DNA of 64,000 nucleotides from Anodontia alba (taxonomy: Eukaryota > Mollusca > Bivalvia > Lucinida > Lucinidae). Shown here in pieces: positions 546 to 61,527 of this stretch. The translations under genes were made by a program, and so were the position numbers. The stretch covers positions 72,422,110 through 72,486,109 of the forward strand of contig OZ024829.1 in the NCBI GenBank assembly GCA_964016985.1, in the 5' to 3' direction. The notes beneath the pieces were generated by a model. The model had not been told where the DNA came from and did no database searches. It saw nothing but the letters and a program-made list of their open reading frames with translations. Numbering within the stretch: the first letter of the stretch is position 1; each line of letters begins with the position of its first letter.

Positions 546-1153
546 TTTTTGGTTGTTTATTTTTGTTTTGTTATTGTTTGATTGATATTGAAGTATAGGA
601 AAAACAAATCAGCCAAAGGCTCATATGAGCTTATAATATAGCCATGCTTCTGTCGTGTGTCCTCTGTCGGAAAGTACTTCTCCCTATTTTCCCAGGAGGG
701 AGAAGTCACTTCTCCCTTAAGAAGTCATTTCTCCCTTAATTTCTGGGCCTGCTTGGACTGTTAGTTTACAGTTCACCAAATATCAGCAGAGCTATGCCCC
801 AATGAAAATTTTTTAATTTAATTCCACTTACAGTTTATATCCGGAGCACTTTATGTGCTGCATCTTTTAACTTGCCACGGGCGTATAATGCCCCGCTTGG
901 CGGAGCTCTGCGGGCCCCCGTAGCCTAGTGGATAAGAGAGTTGACTCTTAATCCATTAGGTTTCTCACCGCTGTGGTTCGAGCCTCGCTCGGGTCATATG
1001 TGGGAAAGCCAAGTTCTGCTTACGGATGGTCAGGTGGTTTTTCTCCGGGTTCTCCGGTTTTCGCCCACCTTCGATGAACGATCGGCTCGATATAAGTGAA
1101 ATATTCTTGAAAGGGCCGTAAAACCCAAATCAAAAATTGGCGGAGCTCTTGTT
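546..1153 (+). mobile_element. Family E element E1 (interrupted by a SINE)
   Basis: The copy carries the E head (GTATAGGAAAAACAAATC, the palindrome GCTCATATGAGC, then TCGTGTGTCCTC) and the E 3' end: CCGC-TTG-GCGG hairpin followed by AGCTCTTGTT at 1144-1153. A GGGAGAAGTCACTTCTCCC hairpin lies near 700. The right flank resumes a host sequence seen uninterrupted near 1640-1660. The terminal design matches the other TT-inserting families. The 5' edge is uncertain. Confidence 0.65.
910..1136 (+). mobile_element. tRNA-derived SINE (type 1) inside E1
   Basis: A tRNA-like head has an A-box-like TAGCCTAGTGG (921-931) and a B box GGTTCGAGCCT (975-985). The tail ends CCGTAAAACCCAAATCAAA. A perfect 13-bp target duplication TTGGCGGAGCTCT flanks it (897-909 and 1137-1149), which proves retroposition into the 3' hairpin of E1. 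It is not a functional tRNA because no acceptor stem closes. Confidence 0.9.
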
Positions 1154-1722
1154 TTATAATAGATATATTTTTTGCAAATAACTAAAGTTATGGACATACG
1201 GGCAAGATACTGATTTTTTTTGTTTTTCAACATCTACTTTTATTCGATTTGCAAGAAAATGTTGCCATTATTAAATCTTTACAAATACATTTGTTAAATG
1301 ATACAGAATTAAGAAGATTGACTAATATCAAAACTTATAAACATAATTATTTTTGGATTTTTTTTTTTTTTAATTCTCTTCTGAGTTGGCTGCCTTGAAG
1401 AACAAAAATAAAATCAGTATAAAACAAGTTAAAGGTTTACAAAAAAATTTTTGTTTTGTTATTGTTTGGTCTGATATTGAAGTATAGGAAAAACAAATCG
1501 GCCAAAAGCTCATATGACCTTATAATATAGCCATGCTTCTGTCGTGTGGCCTCCGTCCGAAAGCACTTCAAGGGTTATGCCCTTTTGAAAGTTTTTGTAA
1601 ACTTTTTGCAGCATATTTAGAGGTAATAGTGTGCAAATTTTATTTTATAATAGGTATATTTTTTTGCAAATAACTAAAGTTATGGCCATATGGGCAAATT
1701 ATTTTTTTAACACCTTCTTTTA
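1154..1722 (+). repeat. Older E/R1 sequence hosting E1 and D1
   Basis: This stretch holds a motif GCAAATAACTAAAGTTATGG at about 1174 and again near 1667, R1 copy 2 (1241-1445) and an E-type head with TCGTGTGGCCTCCGTCCG at about 1450-1570. Around 1231-1260 R1 is uninterrupted and gives the empty site for D1. Confidence 0.6.
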
Positions 1723-3033
1723 TTGTCGCACCTGCGTTAGCACGCAGGTGCGATATAGGCGTGCCGTGACCCGTCTGTTCGTCAACAATTGACTTGTGAG
1801 CGCAACTCCTCCTACAGTTTTTGGCCAATCATTTTGAAACTTCACAGATATTTTGGCCATGGCGTGTAGATGTGCATATTGTTTGCTCATAATTCTCAGA
1901 TTTTTTTTTTCCAACATTTTCTGCTTTAACTTAGTCAGTTTTTACCTAAAACCCTTATAGTCAGTGGGTGTCTCATGAGCGCAACTCCTCCTACAGTTTT
2001 TGGCCAATCATTTTGAAACTTCACAGATGTTTTGGCCATGGTGTGTAGATGTGCATATTGTTTGCTCATAATTCTCAGATTTTTTTTTTCAACTTTTTCC
2101 GCTTTGTTAACTTAGTCAGTTTTTACCTAAAACCCTTATAGTCAGTGGGTGTCTCGTGAGCGCAACTCCTCCTACAGTTTTTGGCCAATCATTTTGAAAC
2201 TTCGCAGATGTTTTGGCCATGGTGTGTAGATGTGCATATTGTTTGCTCATAATCCTCAGATTTTTTTTTTTCAACTTTTTTCACTTTGTTAACTTAGTCA
2301 GTTTTTACCTAAAACCCTTATAGTCAGTGGGTGTCTCGTGAGCGCAACTCCTCCTTCAGTTTTTGGCCAATCATTTTGAAACTTCACAGATGTTTTGGCC
2401 ATGGTGTGTAGATGTGCATATTGTTTGCTCATGATTCTCAGATTTGTTTTTCAACTTTTTTCGGCTTTGTTAACTTAGTCAGTTTTTACCTAAAACCCTT
2501 ATAGTCAGTGGGTGTCTCGTGAGCGCAACTCCTCCTGCAGTTTTAGGCCAATAGTTTTGACACTTCACAGATGATTAGGTCAGGGTCTGAAGATTTGCGT
2601 ATTGTTTGCACATAAATCTCAGATTCATTTCAGCTGTGTTAGGGGCCCTTGATTTATGCCCAAAATTGGTTTCCGCTCAATATCTTGTGAAAGAATTGAT
2701 GGATTAGGATCACATTTTGCATACATATTGTTGTTAACAATACCTAGCTTGGGATTGTCACATGACGTTTTTCGTCAATTTTCAGCTGAGTTACTGGCCT
2801 TGATTAATGGGCAAAAAGGATATCCGCTCAATATAAATATCTTGTGAAATAATGGACAGGTTTAGATCAAATTTTGCAAGCCAATATTCCAAATTTTCTA
2901 CTTTGTCCATTTTTCTTACAAACTAACCCATCAATTTCTTGAATACTGCAAAATAGATTTTTTTCAATACAAATAGGAACTTGTATGACTTAATCCCTGC
3001 AGGTGCGACATCGCTTTCCGCAGATTTCTTGTT
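1723..3033 (+). mobile_element. Family D element D1 (complete)
   Basis: The head TTGTCGCACCTGCG forms a hairpin with CGCAGGTGCGA. The core has about five ~181-bp units (TGAGCGCAACTCCTCCT at 1797, 1976, 2157, 2339, 2520), each with TTTTGAAACTTCACAGATG. The 3' end has GCAGGTGCGAC, an inverted copy of the head, then TTCCGCAGATTTCTTGTT. The flanks rejoin as R1: compare TTTTATT at 1238-1244 with the flank at 1716-1723, and the right flank AAATTAGCAAGG with ATTTGCAAG. That gives a TT insertion with both ends intact. No transposase is encoded. Confidence 0.85.
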
Positions 3034-3355: not shown

Positions 3356-6141
3356 TGCAGCATTGTACTACAGTTTTGTACCGATCATTTTGAAACTTTG
3401 CATATGTTTTCTACATGGTATGAAGATGTGCATATGTTTTGGATATAATTGTTAGATTATTTTTTGTCACTTTTTCCACATTGTGAACTTAGTCATTTTT
3501 TCACCTCAATATATAGACAGCGGGTACCTCTTGTGAGCGCAACTCCACTTAAAGTTTTATACTGATTGTTTTGAAACTTTGCATGTGTTTTCTTCATGGT
3601 ATGAAGATGTGCATGTGATTTGGGTATAATTGTTACAACATTTTTTGTCACTTTTTCCACATTGTGAACTTAATCTTTTTTCACCCTAGGTATATAGACA
3701 GTGGGTACCTCTTGTGAGCGCAACTCCTCTTACAGTTTTGCACCGATCGTTTTGAAACTTTGCATATGTTTTCTTCATGGTATAAGGATGTGCATGTGGT
3801 TTGGGTATAATTGTTAGAACATTTTTTGTCACTTTTTCCACATTGTGAACTTCGTCATTTTTCACCCTTTGTATATAAACAGTTGGTACCTCTTGTGAGC
3901 GCAACTCCTCATACAGTTTTGTACCAATTATTATGAAACTTTGCATGCCTTTTTTTCATGGTATGAGGATGTGCATGTGGTTTGGATGTAATTGTTAGAT
4001 TATTTTTTTTTACTTTTTTCCACATTGTGAACTTAGTCATTTTTCACCCTCAATATGTAGACAGGGGCTACCTCGTGAGCACAACTCCTCATACAATTTT
4101 ATACTAATCTTTTTGCAACTTTGCAAATGTTTTTTCCATAGTCTGAAGATGTGCACGTGCTTTTCAGATAATCCTTGCCATATTTTTTGTCACTTTTTTG
4201 TACTTTTTGTCCCCGCCTTTTCGAAGAAAAGCGGAGGGACACTGTTTTCGGCTTTCCTTGGTGCGTGGTTCCGAATTTTTAGTAGGTACCTTGTCCCCTT
4301 AACTCCTCCCACAGTTTTTGTTCGATCCTTTTGAAACTTAACAGGGGCTTTTAAGATGATCTGAAGATATGCATGTGGTTTTTTCAGAACCCTGAAATTA
4401 TTTTTTACCACTTTTTACACATTTTGAAAGACATTTTTTGAGTTCTAATATTACAGAAGTCTATAGGGAGTAAGTACCTTGTCCCCTTAACTCCTCCCAC
4501 AGTTTTTGGTCAATCCTTTTGAAACTTTACATGGGCTTTAAGGATGGCCTGAAGATATGCATGTGGATTTTTCAGAATCCTGAAATAATTTTTTATCACT
4601 TTTTCCGCAGTTTTAACTTAAGACATTTTTTGAGTTCTAATATTACAGAAGTGTATAGGGAGTAGGTACCTTGTCCCCTTTACTCCTCCCACAGTTTTTG
4701 GCCGATCCTTTTGAAACTTTACATGGGCTTTTAGGATGGCCTGAAGATATGCATGTGGTTTTTTCAGAGTCCTGAATTAGTTTTTATCACTTTTTCCGCA
4801 TTTTTAACTTAGACATTTTTTGAGTTCTAATACTACAGACATTTTTTGAGTTCTAATACTACAGAAGCGTATAGGGAGTAGGTACCTTGTCCCCTTAACT
4901 CCTACCACAGTTTTAAGCCGATCCTTTTGAAACTTTACAGGTGCTTTAAGGATGGTCTGAAGATATGCATGTGGTTTTTTCAGAATCCTGAAATTATTTT
5001 TTATCACTTTTTACACATTTTGAACTTAGACATTTTTTGAGTTCTAATATTACAGAAGTCTATAGGGAGTAAGTACCTTGTCCCCTTAACTCCTCCCACA
5101 GTTTTTGGTCGATCCTTTTGAAACTTTACATGGGCTTTTAGGAAGGCCTGAAGATATGCATGTGGATTTTTCAGAATCCTGAAATAATTTTTTGTCACTT
5201 TTTCCGCATTTTTAACTTAGACATTTTTTAGTTTTAATATTACAGAAGTGTATAAGGAGTAGGTACCTTGTCCCCTTAACTCCTCCCACAGTTCTTGGCC
5301 GATCCTTTTGAAACTTCGCATGGACTTTTAGGATGGCCTGAAGATATGCATGTGGTTTCTTCAGAATCCTGAAATAATTTTTTATCACCTTTTCCGCATT
5401 TTTAACTTAGACATTTTTTGAGTTCTAATACTACAGAAGCGTATAGGGAGTAGGTACCTTGTCCCCGTAACTCCTACCACAGTTTTAAGCCGATTCTTTT
5501 GAAACTTTACAGGTGCTTTAAGGATGGTCTGAAGATATGCATGTGGTTTTTTCAGAATCCTGAACATATTTTTTATCACTGGTTTCCTGCTTCAATACTT
5601 AGGTAAGTGATACAGGACCAATGGTCCTCTGGTTAACTTATCCATTTTTAACAACTCAAATAAAAATAAGGCGGGGGACATAAATTCCCTATGGAATTTG
5701 CTTGTTGAACTTTGTCATTTTCTGACCTCAGATGTATAGACAATGGGTACCTTGTGATTGCAACTTTTCATACAATTTTAAACCGGTCTTTTTGAAACTT
5801 TGCACATGTTTTCTCCCGTGTCTGCAGAAGTGCACGTGGTTTGGATATGATTTTTAAATTTATTTTTGCCACTTTTTCCACTTTAACTTTGTCATTTTCT
5901 GAACCTCAGATTGTATGAAAGTGTACAGACTTTGGGTACTTTTTGAGCCCAATTTCTCATGTATCATATGAGAAAATTCATATGCTTTCAATGAAATTCC
6001 TGTATTCATATAATCCTTGTCTTTAATTTTTGTCACTTTTCCAACTAAGCACTGCTAAGAATGAAATAAATTTATTTAATAACCACGTCCTGTGAATTTT
6101 GCCCCAGCAGGTGCGACGCCGCCTTCCGCAGAATTCTGGTT
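3356..6141 (+). mobile_element. Family D element D2 (5' truncated, split by H)
   Basis: Core units of about 181 bp (TTGTGAGCG at 3532, 3712, 3893) run up to the H insertion and resume after it at GAACTTTGTCATTTTC. The 3' end at 6106-6141 has CAGGTGCGACGCC followed by the near-palindrome TTCCGCAGAA and TTCTGGTT. No D head is present, so the left side was lost. The right flank continues as family E. Confidence 0.75.
4208..5706 (+). mobile_element. Family H element, nested in D2
   Basis: A strong 5' hairpin pairs GTCCCCGCCTTTTC with GAAAAGCGGAGGGAC around GAA. The core has about seven ~191-bp units (TACCTTGTCCCCTTAACTCC). The end has GGCGGGGGACA (inverted copy of the head), the hairpin AAATTCC-CTAT-GGAATTT and GCTTGTT. 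The same D sequence without H is seen at 59885-59905 (TTCTTTTTGAAC), so both ends and the TT target are defined. An A-like end (GGACC-AAT-GGTCC-TCTGGTT) sits inside at about 5613-5633. Confidence 0.85.
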
Positions 6142-6540
6142 TTGTTATTGTTTGGTCTGATATTGAAATATAGGAAAAACAAATCAGCCAAAGGCTCATA
6201 TGAGCTTATAATATAGCCATGCTTCTGTCGTGTGTCCTCCGTCTGAAAGCACTTCTCCCTAGGCGCAGCAAACTTCGCCATATTTTCCCAGGAGGGAGAA
6301 GTCTATTCTCCCTTAATTTTTTGGCCAGCTTGCACCCTTAGGTTACAGTTCACCAAATATCAGCAGAGCTATGCCCCAATGAAAATTTTTTAATTTTTTT
6401 TTGTTTTTTTTTGTTTTTTTGTTTTGTAATTTCACTTACTGTTTATATCCGGAACACAGAATTATACAGGAGCCAGTTTATGTGCTACATCTTATTACTT
6501 GCCACGGGTGTATAATGCCCCGCTTGGCGGAGCTCTTGTC
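6142..6540 (+). mobile_element. Family E element E3
   Basis: Begins with E head sequence (TTGTTATTGTTTGGTCTG, GTATAGG-like, GCTCATATGAGC) and ends GTATAATGCCC, CCGC-TTG-GCGG, AGCTCTTGTC. It follows the end of D2 directly. A GGAGGGAGAAG motif near 6290 is shared with E1. Confidence 0.6.
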
Positions 6541-6947
6541 TAATCTGTAGTGAGTTCTTTGTTTCCAAAGGCAATCTTTTTGACGTTTATTATATTTCTC
6601 TGCCCCAGTGCTGTTTACATGTATAAAATTATGATACTGTTAAACAACTCTTCAGAAACTACTTAGCCAATTTCCACCAAATTTCACATTGATCCTACTG
6701 TTGAAATGTGATTAAGAATTTGTTCAAATGATCACGCTCCATTGACTGTCATGCCCATATATTCTTCTTCAAAACTTAGAACTGCTTAAATGATGATCCT
6801 TACATTAGTTGCAGTGATAAGATTGGAAAAATGTTGCATAACATCTGCATATCTGCAGTGGCTATGTCACTCAGGTGAGCGATATAACTGAAAGATTGTT
6901 GAAAGCGACATTAAGTCTGAATAAAAGAAAAATAAATAAATAAAACT
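6541..6947 (+). repeat. Family A 3' module fused to a SINE tail
   Basis: The ~350-bp conserved end of family A is present (GTGCTGTTTACATGTATAAA, CATCTGCATATCTGCAGTGG, CACTCAGGTGAGCGATAT). Where the terminal palindrome should follow, the sequence switches to the tail of the type-4 SINE (ACTGAAAGATTGTTGAAAGC … AATAAATAAATAAA). The shared GATAT may have mediated the join. Confidence 0.65.
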
Positions 6948-8268: not shown

Positions 8269-9342
8269 TTATAGCCCCGCTTTGAAAAAGTGGGGTTATA
8301 CTGGATTTGCCATGTCCTTCCGTGACTGTCATTCCACCATTCCGTGACTGCAAAATTAAAATGCATTTTGCTTAATAACTTTTATGTTTGTGGTCCTACT
8401 TCAATGACACTTATACCACCCTTGGTCTCTAAGGTAAGTAAGGTGCAGAACAGTGGCCAAGGGCCCACAACTCTTGGAGTTATGTCCCTTGGTAGGTTTT
8501 CAAAATTTAAAATGCATTTTGCTCAATAACTTTAATGTTTGTGGTCCTACTTCAGTAAACCTTATACCGTTCTTGGTCTCTAAGGTAAGGAAGGTGGGGT
8601 GCAGAATGGAGGCCAAAGGCCGATAACTCTTGGAGTTATGTCCCTTGATAGGTTTTCAAATTTTGCCATTCTTGAAAATTTTCGTAACAGATCTCTAAGG
8701 AATTATGAAAGCTAGAATTTTGAAAATTGGTGAACATGGACAATGACTGGATGTATCGTGTGTACCGGAATAGGGGCCAAGGAGCCATACCTCCTGGAGT
8801 TATGTCCCTTGGTAGGTTTTCAAAAAAATTAAAGTGCATTTTGCTCAGTTACTTTAATATTTGTGGTCCTACTTCGATGAAACTTATACCACACTTAGTC
8901 TCTAAGGTAATGAAGGTGTAAGTTCAGTAACATATTTCTCAGAACCTAAGAAAGCTAGAACGCTGCAAGTTCCTATAAACATGGACAATGACTGGATGTA
9001 TCAAGTTTACCAGAATAGGGGCTAAGGGTTCATAACTCATGCAGTTATGTCCCTTGGTAGGTTTTCAAAAAATTAAAATGCATTTGCTTAACTTTTATGT
9101 TTGTGGTCCTTCTTAGATGAAACTTATACCACACTTTGTTTCTAAGGTAAGGAAGATGTGACAGAATAGTGACCAAGGGCCCATAACTCTTGGAATTATG
9201 TCCCATGGTAGGTTTTCAATTTTCATAGATTCATCCCATCTTTCTCTCCAATTTTTAAACATCAAAATTTTTCAACACACTTGTGTCTTTCTCCTCTGAT
9301 GGCGCTGTAGTGGGGCCATAGTCAGATATTCTGACAGCTCTA
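8269..9342 (+). mobile_element. Family B element B1
   Basis: The head TTATAGCCCCGCTTTGAAAA pairs with AGTGGGGTTATA. The core repeats AAAATGCATTTTGCTCAATA, GTTTGTGGTCCTACTTC, GATGAAACTTATACCAC and CTTGGAGTTATGTCCCTTGG. The end has GTGGGGCCATAGTCAG, a GTCAG-ATATT-CTGAC hairpin and AGCTCTAG. It interrupts a 166-bp unit on the left and abuts the head of family I on the right. Confidence 0.75.
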
Positions 9343-10420
9343 GATACCCCTGCAAACTTTGTTTGTTGGGGTGGGGGTGAGGGGTGGAGATACTGTTTTC
9401 ACGTTGTGTGTCCGTCTGTCCGCAACGCTGTTTTTTTCCTAATATCTTGAAAACGCAGTGATGGATTCATCAATTTCTGCAGACACATGATATCAATAAG
9501 ATGTACTTACATAAGAGAAAGTAAGGGCTAGGGGCCAATTCTCTTGGAGTTACAGCCCTTTGTAAATTTTTTTCTTAATGCATAAAAAAACTTGTGTGCA
9601 CACAATCTCTTCAATCAATGGCTGGAATTTGACCAAACTAGCACATATACAACATCAGGATGGGGGAAATAAGTGATTAGATTTTGTGATTTTGACCTTA
9701 TTTTCAAGGTGACTACATTATAAATACTAAAAAAGGAGCTTAAAGGAGCCTTGTTAATGAAGTAAAAAGTTTGTGTGCACAATATCTCTTTAATCAATGG
9801 CTGGAATTTGACAGAACTAGCACAGATACATCATAAGGATGGGGCAAAGAAGTGATTAGATTTTAATGACATTGACCTTATTTTCAAGGTCATTACACTA
9901 TAAATACTCAAAAAAGTGAGCCTTGTTAATGCAGTAAAAAGATTATGTGCACATTATCTCTTTAACAAATGGATGGAATTTGACCAAACTAGCACAGTTA
10001 CATCATCAGGATGGGGGGAAAGAAGTGATTAGATTTTGCTAACCTTGACCTTATTTTCAAAGTCACTACATTATAAATGCTCAAAAAGGAGCCTTGTTAA
10101 TGAAGTAAAAAGTTTGTGTGCACAATATCTCTTTAACCAATGGCTGGAATTTGACCAAACTAGCACAGATACATCATAAGGATGGGGCAAAGAAGTGATT
10201 AGATTTTGGTGACCTTGACCTTACTTTCATAGTCACTACACTATAAATACTCAAAAAAGTGAGACTTGTTAATGCAGTAAAAAGTTTGTGTGCACATTAT
10301 CTCTTCAACCAATGGCTGGAATTTGATCAAACTAGCAAAGATACATCATCAGGATCGGGGAAAGAAGTGATTAGATTTTGGTGACCTTGACTTTATTTTC
10401 AAGGTCACTACATTATAAAT

Positions 10421-13299: not shown

Positions 13300-15963
13300 T
13301 TAGCTCACCTGAGCCGAAGGCTCAAGGTGAGCTATTGTGATCACTCACCGTCCGTCGTCGTCGTCGTCGTTCGTCCGTCCACAATCTTTAAACAACATCT
13401 CCTCCTAAACCAGTGATTGGAATTTGACCAAACTTCACAGGATTGATCCTTGGTTGGTCCTCTTTCAAAGTTGTTCAAATGGTTCCGGTCCGTTGCATAT
13501 CTAGGTCACAGCAGCTAAAAATAGATTTTTTAACTAAAAACTTAAAAAATCTTCTTGTCAGAAACCACTGGACCGATTTCAATACAATTTTGCAGAAATG
13601 TTCCTTTGGTGACCCTCTACCAAGATTGTTCGAGGCATTTGGATTCGTCAAAAAACATGGCCGCCAGGGGGCGGGGTTTATTTTCTCTCTATATCTATAT
13701 AGAAAACTTTAAAAATCTTCTTGTCAGAAACCACTGGACCGATTTCAATATAATTTTGCAGGAATGTTCCTTTGGTGATCCTCTACCAAGATTGTTCAAG
13801 CTGTTTGGATTCGTCAAAAAACATGGCCGCCAGGGGGCGGGGCTTATTTTCCCTATATATCTATATAGAAAACTTTAAAAATCTTCTTGTCCAAAACCAC
13901 TGGACCGATTTCAATATTATTTTGCAGAAATGTTCCTTTGGTGATCCTCTACCAAGATTGTTCAAGCCATTTGGATTCGTCAAAAAACATGGCCGCCAGG
14001 GGGCGGGGCTTATTTTCCCTATATATCTATATAGAAAACTTTAAAAATCTTCTTGTCCGAAACCACTGGACCGATTTCAATATAATTTTGCAGAAATGTT
14101 CCTTTGGTGATCCTCTACCAAGATTGTTCAAGACATTTGGATTCGTCAAAAAACATGGCAGCCAGTGGGCAGGGCTTATTTTCCCTATATTATCTATATA
14201 GAAAACTTTTAAAAATCTTCTTGTCCGAAACCACTGGACCAATTTCAATATAATTTTGCAAAAATGTTCCTTTGGTGATCCTCTACCAAGATTGTTCAAG
14301 CCATTTGGATTCGTCAAAAAACATGGCCACCCAGGGGCGGGGCTTATTTTCCCTATATATCTATATAGAAAACTTTAAAAATCTTCTTGTCCGAAACCAC
14401 TGGACCGATTTCAATATAATTTTGCAGAAATGTTCCTTTGGTGATCCTCTACCAAGATTGTTCAAGCTATTTGGATTTGTCAAAAAACATGGCCGCCAGG
14501 GGGCGGGGCTTATTTTCACTGTATATCTGTATAGAAAACTTTAAAAATCTTCTTGTCAGAAACCACTGGACCGATTTCCATATGATTTTGCAGAAATGTT
14601 CCTTCGGTGATCCTATTGCAAGATTGTTCAAGCCATTTGGATTTGTCAAAAAACATGGCGGCCAGGGGGGCGGGGCTTATTTTCCTTGTATATCTTTATG
14701 GAAAACTTTAAAAATCTTCTTGTCAGAAACCACTGGACCGATTTCCATATGATTTTGCAGAAATGTTCCTTTGGTGATCCTGTTGCAAGATTGTTCAAGC
14801 CGCCATGAATTGTTAAAAAACATGGCCGCACAGGGGCGGGGTTAATTTTCCCTATATATCTATATAGAAAACTTTAAAAATCTTCTTGTCATAAACGACT
14901 GGACCGATTTCAATATAACTTGGCAGAAATGTTTCTTTAGTGACCCTCTATCAAGATTGTTCAAGCCGACATGATTTGTCAAAAAACATGGCCGCTAGGG
15001 GGTGCGGGGCTTATTTTCGATATAATTCTATATAGAAAACTTGAAAAAATCTTGTCGTCAGAAACCACAGGACTGATTTCAATATAACTTCGCAGAAATG
15101 TTTCCTTGGTGACCCTTTACCAAGATTGTTCAAGCCGTTATGATTTGTCAAAAAACATGGCCGCTAGGGGGCGGGGCTTATTTTCCTATATAATTTATCT
15201 GTATAGAAAATTTTAATAGTCTTTTCAGAAAGCACTTGACCAATTTCAATGTAACTTTGCAGGAATGTTTCTTATGTAACCCTCTATCAAGATTGTTCAA
15301 GCCATCACGATTCGTCAAAAAACATGGCCGCCAGGAGTCGGGGCTTATTTTCCTTATATATCTATATAGAAAACTTTAAAACTCTTCTTGTTAGAAACCA
15401 CTGAACCGATTTCATTATAACTGCAGAAATTTTTCCTTGGTGACCCTCTACTAAGATTGTTTAAGTAATCATGATTCGTCAAAAAACATGGCTGCCTGGG
15501 GCAGGGCTTATTTTCCCTATATATCTATATATAAAACTTTAAAAATCTTCTTTTCAGAAACCAATGGACCGATTTCTATACAACTTGGCAGGAATGTTTC
15601 TTTGGTGACCCTCTACAAAGATTGTTCAGGCCGTCATGATTCATTAAAAATCATGGCCGCTAGGGGGCGGGGCTTATTTTCCCTATATATCTATATAGAA
15701 AACTTTAAAAATCTTGTCGTAAGAAACAGTTGGACCGAGTTCAATGTAACTTGGCAGGAATGTTGCTTTGGTGACCTTCTACCAAGATTGTTCAAGCCTT
15801 CATGATATCTCAAAAACCATGGCCCCCAGGGGGGGCGGGGCTTATTTTTCATCTATATCTGCATAGAAATCCTAGAGCAGTGAACTTGGCTGAAATTTCA
15901 ACAGTAAATATGCAAATCTGTTTGGTCAGGTGAGCGATATAGGACCATCATGGTCCTCTTGTT
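13300..15963 (+). mobile_element. Family A element A1, 166-bp satellite core
   Basis: Complete copy. The head TTAGCTCACCTGAGCC…GGTGAGCTATTGTGATC leads into (CGTCGT)n and GTCCGTCC. About 14 units with an exact 166-bp step follow (AGAAAACTTT at 13701, 13867, 14033). The end has CAGGTGAGCGATATA, the palindrome GGACCATCATGGTCC and TCTTGTT. Each unit ends ATGGCCGCCAGGGGGCGG GGCTTATTTTCCC TATATATC. It lies 60 bp before the ATP5F1A exon. Confidence 0.88.
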
Positions 15964-16023: not shown

Positions 16024-16371
<348 letters not shown>

Positions 16372-23171: not shown

Positions 23172-23725
23172 TTAGCTCACCTAAGCTATGCTCAGGATGA
23201 GCTATTGTGATCACTTTTCGTCTGTCGTCCGTGCATCCGTCCGTCTGTCCGTTAACATTTTCAAACGACATCTCCTCTGAAGCTGCTGAGCCAATTTTGC
23301 TCAAATTTCATATGGAGCCTCCTTAGGGTGGGGGAACGAAAGATAGCTAAAATGGTCGCGGTCAGTCGACCAAGATGGCCGCCATGCCCATATATGGTAA
23401 CAACCTTTAAAAATCTTCTTCTCCATAACCGAGGATGCCTTGGGGCTGAATCTTTGCATGAATCATCGGGGACGGGACATCAAACAAAGTTGCTAAAAGA
23501 ATTGTCGTACGTTGACGTTTGACCTTTTTACGGCAAGGTCAAGTTCGCTTCCCTATGCATTTGTATGAGCCCTATACATTTGAATGGGAAAATTGTTGAG
23601 AACTTCAGACGACTTCTCCTCTGCAGTCTCTGAGCCAGTTTTGTTCAAATTCCATATGGAGCCACCTTAGGGTGGTGAAACAAAAGATTGCTAAAATTGG
23701 CCGCCATGCCCATATATGGTCCCTC

Positions 23726-40900: not shown

Positions 40901-40993
40901 GCAATATGTAGTGGTCCCTTACATAAATCCTGCCAATTCAGCCCCAGGGGGCAGTTAACTCAGGTGTGCGTTGTGGCCCATGGGCCTCTTGTT
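37984..40993 (+). mobile_element. Family A element A10, 165-bp satellite, head missing
   Basis: Two diverged ~168-bp units (GGATGGATTTAGTTTATATT) start the array. About 15 units follow with TCAAGCCCCTGGGGTCC, TCATTAGCTCCCATAGACTT, AACCATGAGGCCCACAGC and AGTATGTAGCAATGTTTAG. The 3' end CTCAGGTGTGCG, GGCCCATGGGCC and TCTTGTT is at 40959-40993. SINE 38247-38467 interrupts one unit. Confidence 0.8.
38247..38467 (+). mobile_element. SINE (type 3), 5'-truncated
   Basis: It lacks the first ~65 bases and starts at TATAGTTGGGCAAGGCCTG. The C/T-rich body and GTCGTTAAACCCCAACTC tail are intact. An 8-bp duplication TCCAAACT (38239-38246, 38468-38475) lies in the A10 satellite. Confidence 0.88.
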
Positions 40994-41710
<717 letters not shown>

Positions 41711-46104: not shown

Positions 46105-46137
<33 letters not shown>

Positions 46138-47829: not shown

Positions 47830-49318
47830 TTGATATTGTGCATATCTGCTTTGGGATCACTGATGGGCAAATTTTGTCAATTTTCGACAGTTATCTGCCC
47901 GCGATACGTCCGTATTTTCATTTCTGGACGATAACTTTAGTAAATATCAATGGATTTAGTAAATATCAATGGATTTTCACCAAACTTGGTATGTGCATTG
48001 ATATTGTGGACATCTGATTTGGGATTGCTAATGGGCGAATTTTGTCCATTTTTATACCCCGCCACTATTTAGTGGCGGGGTATTATGGTTTCACGTTGGT
48101 TGTCCGTCCGTTTTTCGTTTCCGGATGATAACTTGAGTAAACATCAATGGATTTTCACCAAACTTGGTATGTGCATTGATATTGTGGAGATCTGGTTTGG
48201 GATTGCTAATGGGCAAATTTCGTCAATTACGGAGTTATCTGCCCGAGACGCCCATATTTTGGTTTCCGGACTATAACTTGTAAATAACAAGGGATTTTCA
48301 CCAAACTTGCTATATGCGATTTGTTGTATGTCTTTCCATGTGTTATTTTGTTCTTGTGTTTTTCAGTCCTTTAAGTATTGGGATTACCTCCCTTGGGGAA
48401 GAGAGAGCTAATCTTAGTGCTTTTCGTGCGTTTGTTCGGTCTGTGCTTGTTTGGATTTGTCGCTTTCCTCTTCCTCTTGGGGTCTGGGAAGGGCTGCAGT
48501 TTGTGATTGTGGCACTCCCTGGACTTTTCTCCTACCTTTTTTTTTTGCTATATGCATTGACATTAAGGAGGTCTGGTTTGGGATTGCTAATGGGCAAATT
48601 TCGTCAATTTTTGACGGAGTTATCTGCCCGAGACACGCCCATATTTTCGTTTCTGGACTATAACATCAGTAAATAGCAAGGGATTTTCACCAAACTTGCT
48701 ATATGCATTGACATTAAGGAGATCTGGTTTGGGATTGCTAATGGGCAAATTTTGTCAAATTTTTACGGAGTTATCTGCCCGAGACACGCCCATATTTTCA
48801 TTTCGGATGATAACTTGAGTAAATAATAAGGGATTTTCATCAAACTTGCTATATGCATTGACATTAAGAAGATCTGGTTTGGGATTGCAAATGGGCAAAT
48901 TTTGTCAACTTTTTCACGGAGTTATCTGCCCGACACACGTCCATATTTTCATTTCTGGATGATAACTTGAGTAAATAACAAGGCCTTTTAACCAAACTTG
49001 CTATATGCATTGATATTATCAAAATCTGCTTTAGGATTGTTATCTGTCCATTGATATTATCAAGATCTGCTTTAGGATTGTTATGGTCCCTCTGTCATTT
49101 TCTTTCCCGACATTTGCCACGATAACTTTAATACATAAACAAATAATTGCTATGGCGGGGTATTATGCTTGCGGTGCTTTTATTGATAGAGTTATCTGCC
49201 TGCAATACATCCGTATTTTACTTTCAGGACATTAACTTGAGTAAATCTCAATGGACTTTCACCAAATTTAATATGAGCATTGATATTGTGGATTTCTGTT
49301 TATCTGTTTGTGGGGTTA
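47830..49318 (+). mobile_element. Family C elements: C1 split by full-length C2
   Basis: The outer C1 core (GATAACTTTAGTAAATATCA, GTGCATTGATATTGTG, TGGGCAAATTTTGTCAATTT) breaks at 48054 and resumes at 49185 (GATAGAGTTATCTGCC). Between them C2 (48055-49184) has the head hairpin TATACCCCGCCACTATTTAG with TGGCGGGGTATTA, TTGTCCGTCCG, about six ~150-bp units, and the end GGCGGGGTATTATGCTTGCG GTGCTTTTATT. Rejoined flanks give TTTTT-GATAGAG as in uninterrupted cores. Confidence 0.82.
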
Positions 49319-50166
49319 AACAAGAGCTGTCAGCAGACAGCATAGCTTGCCTGGAAATGGGGTGGTACTGGAGTGTCAGGGTGCTCTTTAGGACCAGTCT
49401 GATCTGGTTCTGCACTGTTTGCTTAGGCCGATCTGTCCCAATACTTAGAATCATTATGGTAAGAGGAAATGTTATGACATTTTAGCTCTTGACAGGATTT
49501 CTTATGCTATGGTTTGGTCATTTGTTGTCATGAATTTAACATTATCAGGGATCAATTACAAAATCAATTATAAAATTTTTAAGTGTGACCTTGACCTTGA
49601 AGGCATAGGCATGGTTGTGGGTGATGATGAATGAAACGTTTGACCTGTATCTAATATAAAATTTCTAAGTTCTTAACTTTGACCTTGAGGCCATGGGCAA
49701 GGGCATTGAGTATTGCTGAATAAAACTTTGGACCTGTATCTATCATCATGTCAAATATGAACAAAATCCGTCTTATGGTTTGGAAAATATGAGCTCTTAA
49801 AAAACTTTAGTATAAAACCTTGACCTTGGGGTCATAGACATGGGTAGGGTATTGCTAAATAAAACTCTGGAACTGTATCATCATATTAAATATGAACAAA
49901 ATCCATCCTATAGTTTGGAAAATATGAGCTCTTAAAAATCTTTAACATTAAAAATTTCTAAGTCCATGACCTTGACCTTGAGGTGATGGGCTGGGGTATT
50001 GCTGAACTTTGGAACTATATCTATCATCATACCAAATATGAACCAGTTCTATCAAATGGTGAAGCTCTTAAAAAACTTTAACATAAATGTGGACGCTGAA
50101 GCCAACGATGATGCCGACTCGACGCCGGGGTAGCTCTTCCTGGACTTCATCCAGGCTAGCTAAAAA
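49319..50166 (-). mobile_element. Family K element K1 (complete, minus strand)
   Basis: Read on the minus strand the head is TAGCTAGCCTGGATGAAGTC CAGG (hairpin) and the end has CCAGGCAAGCTATG (inverted head), the palindrome GCTGTC-TGCT-GACAGC and TCTTGTT. The core has ~165-bp units with GACCTTGACCTTGAGG and CATCATACCAAATATGAAC on the + strand. The uninterrupted target ACACCAATTTTTTTAACCCC is at 19938-19957. Confidence 0.82.
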
Positions 50167-50425
50167 AATGGTGTTGTGGGGTTAAAAAGATCAAAGAAAG
50201 ATCAAAGGGATAACCTTATAACGCCCGTCTCATTAGTGTAATCGTCTGTCCGTATGTCCGTATTTTTATTTCCGGACGATAACTTGAGTAAATGTGAATG
50301 GATTTTCACCAAACTCGGTGTGTGCATTGATATTGTGGAGATCTGGTCAGGGATTGTTCATGGGCAAATTTCATCAATTTTTGACAGAGTTACCTGCTCG
50401 TGACAGGTCAGTATTTTCATTTTCG
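50167..50425 (+). repeat. C-type fragments around K copies
   Basis: First the TTAACCCC-type flank of K1 (reverse of 19905-19935), then a + strand C core piece with GTCCGTATGTCCG, GATAACTTGAGTAAATG and GAGTTACCTGCTCGTGAC. Confidence 0.6.
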
Positions 50426-50713
50426 GTGTGCCTATGCCTTCAAGGTCAAGGTCACAGACTTAGAAATTTTATAATTGATCCCTGATAATGTTAAATTCAT
50501 GACAACAAATGACCAAACCATAGCACAAGAAATCCTGTCAAGGACTAAAATGTCATAACATTTCCTCTTACCATAATGATTCTAAGTATTGGGACAGATA
50601 GGCCTAAGCAAACAGTGCAGACCCGGATCAGACTGATCCTAAAGAGCACCCTGACACTCCAGTATCACCCCAATTCCAGGCAAGCTATGCTGTCTGCTGA
50701 CAGCTCTTGTTTA
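50426..50713 (+). mobile_element. Family K fragment K2 (3' end, plus strand)
   Basis: Matches the last ~290 bp of K1 in the opposite orientation, ending GCTGTC-TGCT-GACAGC-TCTTGTT at ~50689-50712. K1 and K2 form a large inverted repeat with arms at about 49319-49610 and 50426-50713. Confidence 0.82.
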
Positions 50714-50900
50714 ACCCCACAATGCAAATTTAACCCCACAAACAGATAAACAGAAATCAACCTCATAATGTGAAATTCTACAGAATCGCTAACCTTTGAA
50801 TGTCATGTGAGCATGTACGGATGGACGGACGAACAAACAGACACACGGACAGCCAACATGATACCATAGTACCCCACCACTATTGTATGGTGGGGTAATA
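50714..50900 (-). mobile_element. Family C head, minus strand (C3)
   Basis: On the minus strand, starting near 50900: TTATTACCCCACCATACAAT with AGTGGTGGGGTACTATGG forms the C head hairpin, followed by GTCCGTGTGTCTGTTTG and GTCCGTCCATCCG. It then runs into the repeated AACCCCACA motif where K2 ends. Confidence 0.75.
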
Positions 50901-51355
50901 AAAATGTAAACCGTGCATTTATCCAAAGTATTTGTAGTTTATGAAATGAAAGTAGGCCTTATATGAATATCTAAGGTCAGGGTCATTCAGTGACATTGGC
51001 TCAAGGTCACTAGGATTGAATGTCCATCAAAATTTCAAATATCTTCTCCTCAGAAACCACAAGGCCAATTTGAGTCAGATTTTATATAGACCATTAGTAC
51101 TTCACAGGAACAATAGTTTATATAATTGGTCCTGGTCACAAGACAAAGATGGCAGCCATGCTCATATATGGTAAAAACCATTAAAATATCTTCTTTTCCA
51201 GAACCTTAAGTCAGATGACCTTGAAACTTATTAGCAAAAGGGACTCGAGCCCTACAAAAATTATATAAATGATGATCCTGGGTTGACCTTGACCTATTTT
51301 ATGGCAAGGTCAAACTTGCTCCCTAAGGCTTTTGAATGGGAAAAATGTAAAACAG

Positions 51356-51808: not shown

Positions 51809-52214
51809 CAATCCAGAACAATACAGGTTTATGAAATGAAATAGGTCTCATATGAACCTCACTCAAGTGTCAAAGTTCAAGGTCATTCAGTGATCTTGGT
51901 CCAACGGCACTAGGATTGTATGTTCATCAACATTTTAAAGATTTCCCTATACTACAGAAATTTTGATGGTCAGATTAAAAAAATAAGGCACTGCTTGCCA
52001 TATACGGCATTGCTACTTCATTTTATAGGACCATCATGGCACTCTTGAACATAGAATTTATACAAAAATCTTAAAGCAGTGGACTTGGCTGAAACTTCAA
52101 TAGTAAGCATGCAAATCTGTTAGCTCAGGTGAGTGATATAGAACCATCATGGTCCTTTTGTTGACATTTACTATCTGCCTTGTGTAAAGAAATACTCTCT
52201 ATTATTTATTGCAG

Positions 52215-52665: not shown

Positions 52666-52699
52666 TATATCTTTTAAATCCATTGTTCAGTATTAAATA

Positions 52700-55028: not shown

Positions 55029-56589
55029 TTAGCTCACCTGAGCTATGCTCAGGATGAGCTATTGTGATCATTTTTCGTCTGTCAGTCCGTGCGTCCGTCC
55101 GTTAACATTTTCAAACGACTTCGCCTCTGAAGCCGCTGAGGCAATTTTGCTCAAATTTCATATGGAGTCTCCTTAGGTTGGGGGAAAGAAAAATTGCTAA
55201 AAGAATTGTTGTAGATTGACGTTTGATCTATTTAGAACAGAGGACGCCTTGGGGCTGAATCTTTGCACAAATCATCAGGGACGCGGGGTCTACCAAAGTT
55301 GCTAAAATGATGGTTGTACATTGACGTTTGACCTTTTTATGGCAAGGTCAAGTTTGCTTCCCTATGCATTTGTATGGGCACCTTACATTTGTATGGGAAA
55401 AATGTTGAGAATTTCAAACAACTTCTCCTCTGAAGCCTCTGGGCCAATGTTGCTCAAATTTCATGTGGAGCCTCCTTGGGTTGGGGGAACGAAAGATTGC
55501 TAAAATGGTTGCGGTCCATTTACCCAAGATAGCTGCCATGCCTATATATGGTAAAAACCTTTAAAAATCATCTCCTCCAGAACCAAATAAGCCCTGGGCC
55601 TTATCTTTGCACAAATCCTTGGGGACAGGAGATCTACCAAAATTGCTAAAATGATGTGCCTACGTTGACGTTTGACCTTTTTACGGCAAGGTCAACTTTG
55701 CTTCCCATGCATTTGTATGCGCCCTATACATTTATATGGGAAAAATGTTGAGAATTCATATTTTGGACATCTCCTCTATAATCCAGTTGAATCAAAACTT
55801 GATGATAAGCATAAGGGCACTTATGAAACACAAAATAGCTAAATGAACCGATAGAAAATCCAAGATGGCCACCAGAGCCGCCATCTTGAAAATCAATTTT
55901 CGACATCTCTTTCTCAAACCTTAGATCGCTTTGAGCCGAAACTTGCTCTTTAGCATCAAGATGACTTCTAGATTGAAACAAGCTAAAATTGTGTCGATCG
56001 AAAATCTAAGATGACCACAATGGTTCTGCTTCATTGAACAAGATGACCACCAGAGCTAAAAAATACAAAGTCTTCAAACGACATCAGAGATTCTCGTCCT
56101 TGGCCAATGGCCTGATTTCAAAATATTTGCACAGAAGTATTTCACCAATGGCCCTCAACCAAAATTACTAAAATGGCTCTGCTTGACTGAACAAAATGGC
56201 GACCAGAGCTAAAAATAGAAAAACCTTTAAAAGACCGCCGCAGCAGCCAGTGTCCTGATTTCAAAGTAATTTCACAGAGGTGTTCCTCTTATGGCCCTTT
56301 ACCAAAATTGCTAAAAAGTTCTGCTAGGCTTAACAAAAAGGCCGCCAGAGCTAAAAATAGAAAAAAAACTTTAAACATCTCCTCCTTGGCCAGTGGCCTG
56401 TTTTCAAAATGATGAAAATTTTGAAATGTTGAAAATTTCAGCATTTTAACCTTGAAAGCAAGATATCTCAAAAACTGTTGAAGCCATTGCTTTGTCATAA
56501 GAGTACTGGAAAAATGTTGCATGCCATCTGCATATCTGCAGTGGCGGTTTCACTCAGGTGAGCGAGTTGTGGCCCGTGGGCCTCTTGTT
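55029..56589 (+). mobile_element. Family A element A14, mixed core
   Basis: The head TTAGCTCACCTGAGCTATGC leads to ~0.5-kb A8-type units to ~55760, then 145-bp-type pieces and units with GCCACCAGAGC and AAAAATAGAAAAACCTTTAA. The variant 3' module is at 56400-56560 and the end GGCCCGTGGGCC-TCTTGTT at 56571-56589. Confidence 0.78.
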
Positions 56590-56935
56590 TCTAATTTCAG
56601 CCTGGGGTCACTTGTCTGGTACTCAGGTGAGCAATACAGGGCCATCACAATGAACCAACTGTTGTGATTGCTGCTCATGACAAGTGGGTCTGTTGTTTAT
56701 ATACCTGTGGATTGTTTGATTTGGTCTGTGCGACTGATAAAATGAATGATCCTAGTGTTGTGATCCCTGATCATGACAAACGTGTCTATTGTTTATATAC
56801 TTGTGGAATATTACATACATGAGCGAGCCGTTATGGTCCATGTGACTGACAAAATGATTGAGCCGACTGTTGTGACTGTTGCGATCCCTGATCATGATGA
56901 ATGTGTTTGTTGTTTATATACCTGTGGTTTAAAAG
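56590..56935 (+). repeat. ~100-115-bp repeat (ATGAGCGAGCCGTTATGGTC)
   Basis: Repeated TGATCCCTGATCATGACAAA, TTGTTTATATACCTGTGG and TACATACATGAGC phrases continue after A15 at 61528-63050. An extra A-like end (CTCAGGTGAGCAATACAGG) lies at 56623. The copy near 56801-56820 gives the empty site of A15. Confidence 0.65.
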
Positions 56936-58206
56936 CTCACCTGAGCTATGCTCCGGATGAGCTATAGTGATCACTTTTTGTCCTTCATTCTTCCATCCGT
57001 TAACACTTTCAAAGAGAACTCCTCCAAAGCCATTGGAGCAATTTGTCCCTAACATGGTAAGAATGTTGCTTTGTTAGGGGCCTTTTTAAAAATAGCTAAA
57101 ATTATGGTGATCTGCCTCTTGGTTTGGTTGCCATGGCAACAGAAATCTCCCATAGACTTACAATGGGAAAGTGGTTAAATTACATTTTCTCCATAACCAG
57201 TGAAGTGATGTGAGCCATATTTGGCAGTTGTGATCATTGGATGATTGTCTAACAAGTTTATATGTTTTATGACCAATGGCCATTTTGTTTGGCTGCCATG
57301 GCAACATTAAATTTTAAAAAAGAAATTTTTTAAAAGACATCTCCTCCCAAATCACTGAAGCAAAATGACTCTAATTTTGTACAAATGTTGCTTGGGTAAG
57401 GACAATTCAAAATAGCTAAAATTATGGTGACCTGCTTTTGGTTTGGTTGCCATGGCAACAGAAAGCTCCCATAGACTTATAATGGGAAAATGGTTAAATT
57501 GCATTTTCTCCACAACCAGTGAAGTGATTTGAACCATATTTGGCACTTACGATCATTGGATGATTGTCTACCATGTTTATGTGTTTTATGACCAATGACC
57601 ATTTTTGTTGCACCTGCTTTAGCATGGGGGACTTAGGCGTGCAAGTTTCCGTCCGTCCGTCCGTTCGTCTTTCCGTCAACATTTACCCTGGGTGTCTTGT
57701 GAGCGCAACTCCTCTTACAGTTTTGTACCGATCACTTTGAAACTTTGCATGTGTTTTTATGGTATGAAGATGTGCATGTGGTTTGGATATAATTGTCAGA
57801 TTATTTTTTGTCACTTTTTCCACATTGTGAACTCAGTTATTTTTCACCCAAATATATAGACAGTGGGTATCTCTTGTGAGCGCAACTCCTCTTACAGTTT
57901 TATACTGATAGTTTTGAAACTTTGCGTGTGTTTTCTTCATGGTATGTGGATGTGCATGTGGTTTGGGTAAAATTGTTAGAACATTTTTTTGTCACTTTTT
58001 CCACATTGTGAACTTAGTCACTTTTCACCCTCAATATATAGACAATGGGTACCTCTTGTGAGCGCAACTCCTCTTACAGTTTTGTACCAATTGTTTTGAA
58101 ACTTTGCATATGTTTTCTTCATGGTATGAGGATGTGCATGTGGTTTGGATATAATTGTTAGAACATTTTTTGTCACTTTTTCCACATTGTGAAATTAGTC
58201 ATTTTT

Positions 58207-59070
58207 ATACTCCGCCACTATTGTTACTCCGCCACACAATAGTGGTGGGGTATTATGGTTTCACGTTGGACATCCGTGTGTCTATCCATCCGTCCGTCGT
58301 TTTTCATATTGGGATTGCTAATGGGCAAATTTCGTCAAATTTTTACTGAGTTATCTACGGGAGACACGCCTATATTTTCGTTTCCGGACGATAACTTGAG
58401 TAAATAACAAGGGATTTTAACCAAACTAGCTATATGCATTGACAAAGCAGATCTGGTTTTGGATTGCTAATTGGCAAATTTCATCAAATTTTTACGGAGG
58501 TATCTATTTTCGTTTCCGGATGATAACTTGAGTAAATAACAAGGGGTTTTAACCAAATGATAACTTGAGTAAATAACAAGGGATTTTAACCAAACTTGCT
58601 ATATATATTGACATTAAGGAGATCTGGTTTGGAATTCCTAATGGGCAAATTTCGTCAAATCTGCCTGAGACACGCCCATATTTTCGTTTCTAGACAATAA
58701 CTTGAGTAAATAAGTGATTTTACCCAAACTTGCTATATGCATTGACATTAAGGAGATCTGTTTTGGAATTGCTAATGGGCAAATTTCGTCAAATTTTTAT
58801 GGAGTTATCTGCCCGAGACACGCCCATATTTTCGTTTCCAGCCGATAACTTGAGTAAATAACAAGGCCTTTTTAACAAACTTGCTATATGCATTGATATT
58901 ATCAAGATCTGGTTTAGGATTGTTATCTGTCCATTGATATTATCAAGATCTGGTTTAGGATTGCTACCTCTCCCTCCGTCATTTTCTTTCCAGACATTTT
59001 CGCAACAATAACTTTAATACATAAACAAATAATTGCTATGGTGGGGTATTATGCTTGCGGTGCTTTTATT
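58207..59070 (+). mobile_element. Family C element C4 in D4
   Basis: The head has TATACTCCGCCACTATTG with a short internal repeat of TACTCCGCCAC, pairing with AGTGGTGGGGTATTATGG; then TCCATCCGTCCGTCG. The core has CGATAACTTGAGTAAATAAC and GACACGCCCATATTTTCG. The end GTGGGGTATTATGCTTGCGG TGCTTTTATT joins CACCCTCAATATA, contiguous with TCATTTTT in other D units. Confidence 0.85.
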
Positions 59071-59430
59071 CACCCTCAATATACAGGCAGTGGGTAGGTA
59101 CCTCTTGTGAGCGCAACTCCTCTTACAGTTTTGTAACGATTAATTTGAAACTTTGCATATGTTTTCTTCATAGTATCAGGATGTGCATGTGGTTTGGATA
59201 TAATTGTTAGATCATTTTTTGTCACTTTTTCCACATTGTGAACTTAGTCATTTTTCACCCTTTTTATATAAACGGTACCTCTTGTGAGTGCAACTCCTCT
59301 TACAGTTTTGTACCGATTATTATGAAACTTTGCCTGTGTTTTCTTCATGGTATGAGGATGTGCATGTGATTTGGATGTAATTGTTAGATTATTTTTTTCA
59401 CTTTTTCCACATTGTGAACTTAGTCATTTT

Positions 59431-59732
59431 TATGTTCCCGCCTGCCTTTGGCAGGAGTGGGTCATATAGCGTTTGGCCGTGATGTTACGTGCGTATGTCA
59501 CATTGGTAACCAGGTTCAAGTTTACCTGCAAGTTTAAGTGCAAATTTATGTCCGCATTTCTCTTGCAGCTAATAACTTTTATACCTTCTGGGCTAGAAAG
59601 TTGAAACTTTGTATGACACTTACCTACATCAAGACCTTCTAATGGATGGTACCGTTGCCCTAGGATCATGCCCCTGGGCGGGGCTAGGGGTAGGGGCGGG
59701 GGCATCCGTGTACTTTGGACATATTTCTAGTT
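59431..59732 (+). mobile_element. Family G element (302 bp) in D4
   Basis: The head TATGTTCCCGCCTGCCTTTG GCAGG forms a hairpin. A single core with AGCTAATAACTTTTATACC and AGTTGAAACTTTGTATGAC follows, then GGGCGGGGGCAT (imperfect inverted head) and ATTTCTAGTT. Flanks TCATTTT and CACCCTCAATATATAG are contiguous in other D units. It is the shortest complete member of the set. Confidence 0.8.
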
Positions 59733-61527
59733 CACCCTCAATATATAGACAGTGGGTACCTCATGAGCACAGCTCCTCATACAATTTTATACTAATCTTT
59801 TTGGAACTTTGCACATGTTTTCTCCATAGTCTGAAGATGTGCACGTGCTTTTCATATAATCCTTGCCATATTTTTTGTCACTTTTTTGTTCTTTTTGAAC
59901 TTTGTCATTTACTGACCTCAGATGTATAGACAGTGGGTACCATGTCATTGCAACTTCTCATACAATTTTAAACCGGTCTTTTTGAAACTTTGCACATTTT
60001 CTCCCGGGTCTGCAGAAGTGCACGTGGATTGGATATGATTTTATTCTTATTTTTATCACTTTTTCCACTTTAACTTTGTCATTTTCTTAACCTCAGATAC
60101 TTTTCCACATTGTGAACTTAGTAATTTTTGACTCTCAATATATAGACAGTGGGTACCTTGTGAGCACAACTCCTCATACAATTTTATACCAATCTTTTTA
60201 AAACAATGGACATGTTTTCTCCATAGCCTGAAGATGTACATCTTCTTTTCATATAATCCTTGTCTTAATTTTTTCACTTTTCCAACCTAGCACTGCTAAG
60301 AATGAAATAAACTTATTTAATAACCGCGTTCTGATTGTGGCTCCTGTGACTTTTGCCCCAGCGGGTGCGATGCTGCCTTCCGCGGAATTCTGGTTGTTTG
60401 GTTGCTATGGCAACATTAAATTTTAAAAAATTTCTTTTTTAAAAGACTTCTCCTCCCAAATCACTGAAGCAATATGACTAATTTTGTACAAATGTTGCTT
60501 GGGTAAGGACAATTTAAAATAGCTAAAATTATGGTGATCTGCTTGTTGGTTTGGTTGCCATGGCAACTGAAAGCTCCCATGGACTTATAATGGAAAAATG
60601 GTTAAATTCCATTTTCTTCATAACCAGTGAAGTGATGTGAACCATATTTGGCATTCATAATTTGAAGATGGTCTACCCAGTATGTGAGTTTCAAGACCAT
60701 TGGCCATTTTGTTTGGTTTCCATGGCAACATTAAAATAAAAATGTTTTTTGTTTTTTTTAACAACTACTCCTCCAAACCACTGAAGCAGTAGGAATCTAA
60801 TTTGGTACAAATGTTAAATGGGTAAGGGCAATTGAAAATAGCTAAAAGTCTGCCAATCTGCCTCTTGGTTTGGTTGCCTTGGCAACAGAAAACTCCCATA
60901 GACTTATAATAAGAAAACGGTTAAATTGCATTTTCTCCATAACCAGTGAAGTGATGTGAACCATATTTGGCAGTTATGATCATTGGATGATTACTGTCTA
61001 CCCAGTTTATGTGTTTTATGACAGTGATGATTTTGCTTGGTTGCCATGGCAACATTAACTTAAAAAAGAAAAATGATTTTTTTTAAATGCAGCTCCTCCA
61101 AAACCACAGTAAGTACTGTTGCTAACTTGGAATAGTCAGTAAAACCGAGACTCCCATTTTCTAATCCATAGTGAGTTCTTTGTTTCCAAAGGCAATCTTT
61201 TTGACGTTTATTATATTTCCCTGCCCCTGAGCTGTTTACATGTATAAAATCTTGATATTGTTAAACAACTCTTCAGAAACCACTTAGCCAATTTCCACCA
61301 AATTTCACATTGATCCTACTGCTGAAATGTGATTGAGAGTTTGTTCAAATGATCATGCTCCATTGACTGTCATGCCCATATATTCTTCTTCAAAATGAAG
61401 AACTGCTTAAATGATGATCCTTTCATTAGCTGCAATGATAGGATTGGAAAAATGTTGCATAACATCTGCATATCTGCAGTGGCAATGTCACTCAAGTGAG
61501 CGAGCCATGGCCTGTGGGCCTCTTGTT

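Follow-up and report, generated by a model that had tools for sequence, protein, structure and literature searches.

The window, a 64,000-nucleotide stretch of the genome of the lucinid bivalve Anodontia alba (contig OZ024829.1, positions 72,422,110 to 72,486,109), contains exons of ATP synthase subunit alpha on its + strand (16024-16371, 41411-41710 and 52142-52444), separated by repeat-rich introns of ~25 and 10.5 kb. A motif scan of the window found no earlier exons of this gene, and the part before 16 kb is presumably intronic. The exons are on the + strand, and the element copies between them are thus intronic and in the sense orientation. These introns and the 3' flank of the gene very probably hold about two dozen Helentron-type non-autonomous elements (HINEs) of several families, often nested, that would be mobilized by a RepHel enzyme through a common terminator consisting of a palindrome and TCTNG.

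Anatomy of the elements

The 5' end is a hairpin formed by a subterminal inverted repeat (subTIR) and its inverted copy, mostly followed by a GTCC-like microsatellite. Most elements then hold an array of 140-190 bp units, and the 3' end consists, in order, of the inverted subTIR, a palindrome and TCTNG-TT. Judged by eye and set against the ~11-15 bp of HINEs, the subTIRs are 11 bp or nearly so in families A, B and D, and have a mismatch, an indel or a slightly shorter length in C, F and H. According to the initial annotation, the head recurs in inverted form just ahead of the palindrome in every family; this was seen by eye in A, B, C, D, F and H, and is too general for E, where the copy is imperfect, and for K, where no subTIR was found. 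The 3' palindrome is weak in E, which has a 4-bp stem, and in C, and it is perfect in one of the three D tails. The catalogued elements and tails are as follows.

560..1153, +, family E element with an approximate 5' boundary, interrupted at 910-1136 by a SINE-like insert
1725..3033, +, family D element with a GTCGCACCTGCG hairpin as head, a 181-bp array and the tail ..TTTCTTGTT
4209..5706, +, family H element with a GTCCCCGCC hairpin as head, the palindrome AATTCCCTATGGAATT and the tail TGCTTGTT
5570..5634, +, P-type tail, GGACCAATGGTCC-TCTGGTT
6074..6141, +, family D tail, TTCTGGTT
6142..6541, +, family E element with an approximate 5' boundary and the 3' end CTCTTGTC
8271..9345, +, family B element with the tail CTCTAGAT and, directly after it, the head of the next element (9346)
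13302..15963, +, A-type head and 166-bp array; the tail, GGACCATCATGGTCC-TCTTGTT, is P-type
16411..17862, +, family B element; tail GTCAGATCTGCTGAC-AGCTCTAGTT
23174..29275, +, composite A unit in a D monomer; A heads at 23174 and 28217, one A tail, F inside
26768..27749, +, family F element with a TATGCCCCC hairpin as head and the tail GTGTTTTACAAACAC-CAGCTCTAGTT
29455..31011, +, family A element (145-bp array) that opens a tail-to-head pair in a D monomer
31012..32815, +, family A element (171-bp array), head abutting the preceding tail
33068..37694, +, family A element (145-bp array) with a joined-flank match
37695..37983, +, family E element (5' limit approximate), CTCTTGTT
40959..40993, +, A-like tail, GGCCCATGGGCC-TCTTGTT
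48053..49184, +, family C element (151-bp array), tail TTTTATT
49308..50722, no strand assigned, K inverted pair, both arms GCTGTCTGCTGACAGC-TCTTGTT
50826..50901, -, family C head with microsatellite, the sole counted head on this strand
52066..52162, +, P-type tail, GAACCATCATGGTCC-TTTTGTT
56553..56589, +, family A tail, GGCCCGTGGGCC-TCTTGTT
56934..61527, +, family A element enclosing D and C, with AAA in place of TT at the end of its left flank
57607..60395, +, family D element; tail TTCCGCGGAA-TTCTGGTT
58207..59070, +, family C element in a D monomer with a joined-flank match

The families had been described as unrelated. Their arrays do differ, and the description is overstated: by eye, A and P have subTIR and tail in common, B and K have CTGCTGACAGCTCTWGTT in common, and the heads of B, C, F and H have a CCCCGCC-like core in common. 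Family A itself comprises two head subtypes with differing arrays and one common tail. Insertions are deeply nested, with C inside D inside A at 56934-61527, and one A element starts right at the TT of another (31011/31012). The SINE-like insert (resembling a short interspersed nuclear element) that splits the first E copy is flanked by a 13-bp duplication, TTGGCGGAGCTCT (897-909 and 1137-1149).

K is an inverted pair of 306 columns with 92% identity and inverted CTCTTGTT ends, and both arms have one common outer junction. The sequence common to the arms extends 11 bp beyond CTCTTGTT, and TTTAACCCCACAA repeats flank the pair on both sides (49308-50722). The flanking repeat is found without K near 19930-19980, which indicates that a K boundary exists. 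No head was found for K, and its boundary is a single junction seen twice.

A common 3' signature

The tails quoted in the initial annotation are all present in the window. CTCTWGTT has 18 matches on both strands of the 64-kb window, compared with 4.9 ± 2.2 expected and a maximum of 12 in 100 shuffles, and 15 of the 18 are on the + strand. Manual reading assigned 14 of these matches to element tails; the others lie at 24851 and 25936 (within an array), 46259 and 46926. A palindrome was then required to be perfect, with a stem of at least 5, and to lie at most 4 nt upstream of the motif, and 100 dinucleotide shuffles served as the control. A palindrome followed by TCTNGTT occurs 16 times versus a shuffle mean of 2.0 (sd 1.3, maximum 5), and 13 of the 16 are true tails by manual reading (exceptions 37368, 58908 and 58949). 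A palindrome followed by CTCTWGTT occurs 11 times versus 0.23 in shuffles (maximum 3). Expressed the other way, TCTNGTT follows 25 of 1986 palindrome 3' edges, overlapping ones included, versus 276 of 127,936 positions overall. These counts identify the palindrome plus TCTNGTT as a real 3' signature.

One representative per family was used to offset the many family A copies, the nine representatives being picked after the ends had been seen. Seven of the nine end exactly in TCTNGTT; H ends in GCTTGTT and C in TTTTATT. Tails also deviate within families, namely one B tail (CTCTAGAT), the second E copy (CTCTTGTC) and one P tail (TTTTGTT). The earlier proposal of one 3' signature for many families stands for most of those represented, on the motif and palindrome excess and seven of nine representatives; H, C and the deviating copies depart from it.

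Empty sites define the element boundaries

In the joined-flank test, the flanks of a head and a tail 200-12,000 bp apart were joined and searched for in the window; 105 pairs were formed, 32 passed the filter, and the best 40 of 125 result rows were inspected. Nine same-family pairs from A, C, D and H have an uninterrupted counterpart. The H element at 4209-5706 has an empty site at 59852-59941 (95.6% over 90 bp, ungapped) and the composite A unit at 23174-29275 has one at 59845-59932 (98.9% over 88 bp, ungapped). These ungapped 95-99% matches are the strong cases; a match alone is no proof. Among the other A insertions, 33068-37694 has an empty site at 536-605 (93% over 71 columns, one gap) and 56934-61527 has one at 56768-56857 (84.4% over 90 bp, ungapped), and the flanks of the A-A pair at 29455-32815 adjoin almost without interruption within a D monomer (83% over 88 with ten gap columns in T-rich sequence). 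The D elements at 1725-3033 and 57607-60395 have empty sites at 1223-1288 (86% over 66 bp, ungapped) and 57243-57321 (91% over 80 columns, one gap). For C, 58207-59070 matches 57980-58066 and other D monomers (89% over 91 columns, five gap columns), and 48053-49184 matches 47844-47928 (81% over 86 columns, one gap). The remaining pairs that passed the filter had a flank that is itself an element end, were wrong T-rich pairings, or fell outside the inspected rows.

TT stands on the left in eight of the nine empty-site pairs, the exception being 56934 (AAA), and precedes 20 of the 23 + strand heads. Apart from T's, whose number is ambiguous, the A, C, D and H empty sites show no visible target duplication. 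The A, C, D and H ends are true ends at a mostly T-rich target. The initial annotation had named two outcomes that would speak against it, ends internal to larger elements and copies encoding an unrelated transposase. Neither was found for A, C, D and H, where the empty sites place the ends at insertion boundaries; K comes near the internal-end outcome. As a separate observation, CTTGTT, the letters of the common 3' end, precedes three of the 23 + strand heads (8271, 31012 and 55031) and belongs to a tail only at 31012. This perhaps reflects a target preference for end-like sequence.

Orientation of the heads

Between 1725 and 61527, 23 of 24 counted heads (A 14, B 2, C 3, D 2, F 1, H 1 and one more at 9346) are on the + strand and one C head is on the - strand (two-sided p = 3e-6 if the heads are independent). 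Heads past the last exon (54197 to 58207) are likewise on the + strand. The orientation was seen post hoc, and the 24 heads came mainly from sequences first noticed on the + strand, each search being two-stranded. A detector that used the hairpin and GTC microsatellite only gave 17 matches, 13 on + and 4 on - (two-sided p = 0.049). Removal of four non-heads, 42166 (+) and 23543, 44198 and 63932 (-), left 12 to 1 (p = 0.003), with three of the 12 kept matches detected via a hairpin beside the true head (13282, 28193 and 30976). A rule that all heads are on the + strand was refuted by the - strand C head from this detector.

Several pieces without heads or ends lie in the opposite orientation. 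An inverted patch at 21165-22837 has an A array together with fragments of D and of a 172-bp array, all on the - strand, and has no element ends. A 151-bp array piece is on the - strand at 51460-51626, and headless C-like fragments are on the - strand near 19.9-20.1 kb.

T-tract polarity of the whole window was rejected as the cause of the orientation. Runs of at least 5 number 330 for T and 312 for A, and runs of at least 7 number 51 and 38; proportions this close to equal do not account for 23 to 1 (one-sided p = 3e-5 with the most favourable share). Local target polarity may contribute to the bias: in two D arrays, T-runs of at least 5 are confined to the + strand (17 to 0 and 9 to 0), and D monomers house several of the elements. 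In the A-run-rich arrays (A to T of 27 to 2 in P, 27 to 2 in the 165-bp array and 34 to 12 in F), no - strand head was found.

It is unlikely, though worth stating, that Helentron insertion is strand-polar over tens of kilobases. The rolling-circle strand would then be joined to single-stranded DNA on one strand, exposed by a replication fork or by transcription, and element orientation would thus record the local direction of the fork or of transcription. The bacterial IS200/IS605 elements insert into single-stranded DNA exposed by the replication fork (PMC5371812). Candidate causes of the bias are insertion coupled to replication or transcription, selection acting in introns, and chance within a single window. 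Judged by title, none of the literature matches listed had Helitron orientation bias as its topic. If the one-way orientation holds beyond the window, assemblies would allow a direct test of whether rolling-circle insertion in eukaryotes is coupled to replication or transcription.

Coding capacity

Two complete open reading frames (ORFs) of at least 120 aa are present in the window, at 126 and 120 aa. Ten of the 138 stop-to-stop ORFs of at least 70 aa were tested against Pfam and none gave a match. The longest stop-to-stop ORF (154 aa, 63374-63835) runs over a CACCAGTCAACC-type repeat and has no Pfam match. Pattern scans of viral contigs with the family A ends gave no match, and a 19-base family A pattern run against genome contigs had three matches, all in bacterial records and taken as chance. 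A tRNA match at 7291-7363 (Rfam RF00005, 37.4 bits) is perhaps part of a SINE.

Mobilization and alternative explanations

Extrapolating from established Helitron and Helentron work, a RepHel enzyme encoded elsewhere would nick the 5' end, one strand would be displaced, copying would stop at the palindrome and TCTNG, and the displaced strand would be joined at TT. Families with different heads and arrays have this terminator in common, which makes it probable that most of them are served by one enzyme, as the initial annotation proposed, or by a few related ones. The composite at 23174-29275, which combines two A heads with a single A tail and has a clean empty site, fits the idea raised in PMC5148889 that a read-through copy of a self-inserted Helitron would stop at the first 3' terminus.

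Several observations weigh against this interpretation. Neither a RepHel gene nor an autonomous partner was seen in the window, on ORF lengths and the Pfam test of 10 of 138 ORFs, and the link to Helentron proteins therefore rests on structure. The flank test is unspecific in T-rich repeats, where the wrong pairs 23174/32815 (87%) and 29455/37694 (87%) also pass. Among the inspected rows there is no complete-pair empty site for B, F, P or K, and the one family E pair past the filter fell outside those rows. Three of the 23 + strand heads (9346, 26768 and 56934) have no preceding TT. An automated head-plus-tail test gave a moderate excess of 12 matches versus 1.9 in 60 shuffles (maximum 5), with a true subTIR in 5 of the 12 and chance pairings in the other 7. 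Family C (two copies) has empty sites despite its TTTTATT tail, which makes TCTNG dispensable at some families' ends. The composite can also be explained by successive nested insertions and deletions.

The enrichment of the looser motif YTNGTT with a palindrome is far weaker (37 versus 20.2 ± 4.4, shuffle maximum 34), and this, together with the non-tails among the CTCTWGTT matches (4 of 18) and the palindrome plus TCTNGTT matches (3 of 16), is what a signature selected by eye from chance coincidences would have in its favor. The likelihood of such a coincidence is negligible, given the 16 palindrome plus TCTNGTT matches against 2.0 ± 1.3 in shuffles and the occurrence of the motif at boundaries of A, D and, with one change, H that are shown by empty sites. 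It is also improbable that several families are terminal inverted repeat (TIR) or foldback transposons, or miniature inverted-repeat transposable elements (MITEs), with ends of this kind by chance. The inverted arms and ends of K suit that explanation, and elements of such architecture were once named MITEs (PMC7492417, PMC4067079); A, C, D and H have asymmetric ends, and a TIR transposon or MITE identity was rejected for these four families on empty sites without target duplication other than T's.

Common descent is a far more serious contender. The tail may derive from one ancestral Helentron, with slower divergence at the 3' end and without a single present-day enzyme, and the chance of this falls only a little short of even. 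The sequences common to A and P and to B and K and the head core of B, C, F and H are consistent with descent. The letters of the palindrome vary between several families, with the stem and position kept, which suggests selection on structure and counts against descent alone. Descent and a common enzyme are not mutually exclusive. The palindrome plus TCTNGTT offers a search pattern for satellite-carrying Helentrons and a route to their autonomous partner.

Comparison with known rolling-circle elements

Canonical Helitrons begin with 5' TC, end in a 3' hairpin and CTRR, and insert between A and T. The elements in the window resemble them in the short fixed end that comes after a 3' hairpin; the letters before TT are CTAG in B and F, which fits CTRR, and CTRR also fits two of the three D tails (CTGG before TT) and one P tail. 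They differ in the TT target, the subTIRs, the hairpin almost touching the end, and CTTG in A, E, H and K. A canonical Helitron identity was rejected on the TT target, the subTIRs and the limited spread of CTRR, which outside B and F is confined to the D and P tails just named.

The assignment to HINEs with satellite-like arrays is supported, and the Helentron/HINE identity proposed by the initial annotation holds on the anatomy, the T-rich target, the lack of duplication beyond T's and the differing arrays behind one end type. HINEs are defined by subTIRs, a 3' palindrome, a T-rich target and no target duplication (PMC4067079). Like the HINE/DINE-1 elements and Helentrons described there, the present elements have subTIRs, a 3' palindrome near the end, a T-rich target with variable T's and no coding capacity, and in HINE/DINE-1 the subTIRs are likewise nearly identical between some families. 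The palindrome of mite HINEs lies ~8-35 bp from the 3' end, compared with ~6-11 nt here, and, unlike the systems in that article, no autonomous partner was found within this window.

A TCTNGTT end common to families was not found in print in a narrow search that covered articles without their supplements, and the only match in a literature search for CTCTTGTT and Helitron concerned, by its title, DNA breaks. In Helraiser, there is evidence that the 3' hairpin acts as a terminator, and head-to-tail junctions occur (PMC5876387). The Helitron2 subgroups of Fusarium have a common end, CTCCTGT, and composites with several 5' ends (PMC5148889). FoHeli3-5 of Fusarium oxysporum thus parallel the present families in one 3' end for several subgroups and in composites with multiple 5' ends; they differ in being autonomous and without a 3' hairpin, and satellite arrays are not described in the portion of that article compared here (PMC5148889).

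The window thus richly exemplifies an element type already known, the basic picture having been published for Crassostrea gigas in 2020 (PMC7492417). That article describes 11 elements with satellite-like arrays, some with common flanks and different arrays. Cg_HINE has a subTIR of 11-12 bp with its inverted copy, a GTCY/GTCC microsatellite, a satellite-like array, a 3' subTIR and palindrome, a TT-rich target without target duplication, and families with differing arrays, all as seen here (PMC7492417). The portion of that article compared here states no 3' sequence common to its families, unlike the palindrome plus TCTNGTT of this window. The oyster elements occur in both orientations genome-wide, whereas 23 of 24 heads point one way in the Anodontia alba window (PMC7492417).

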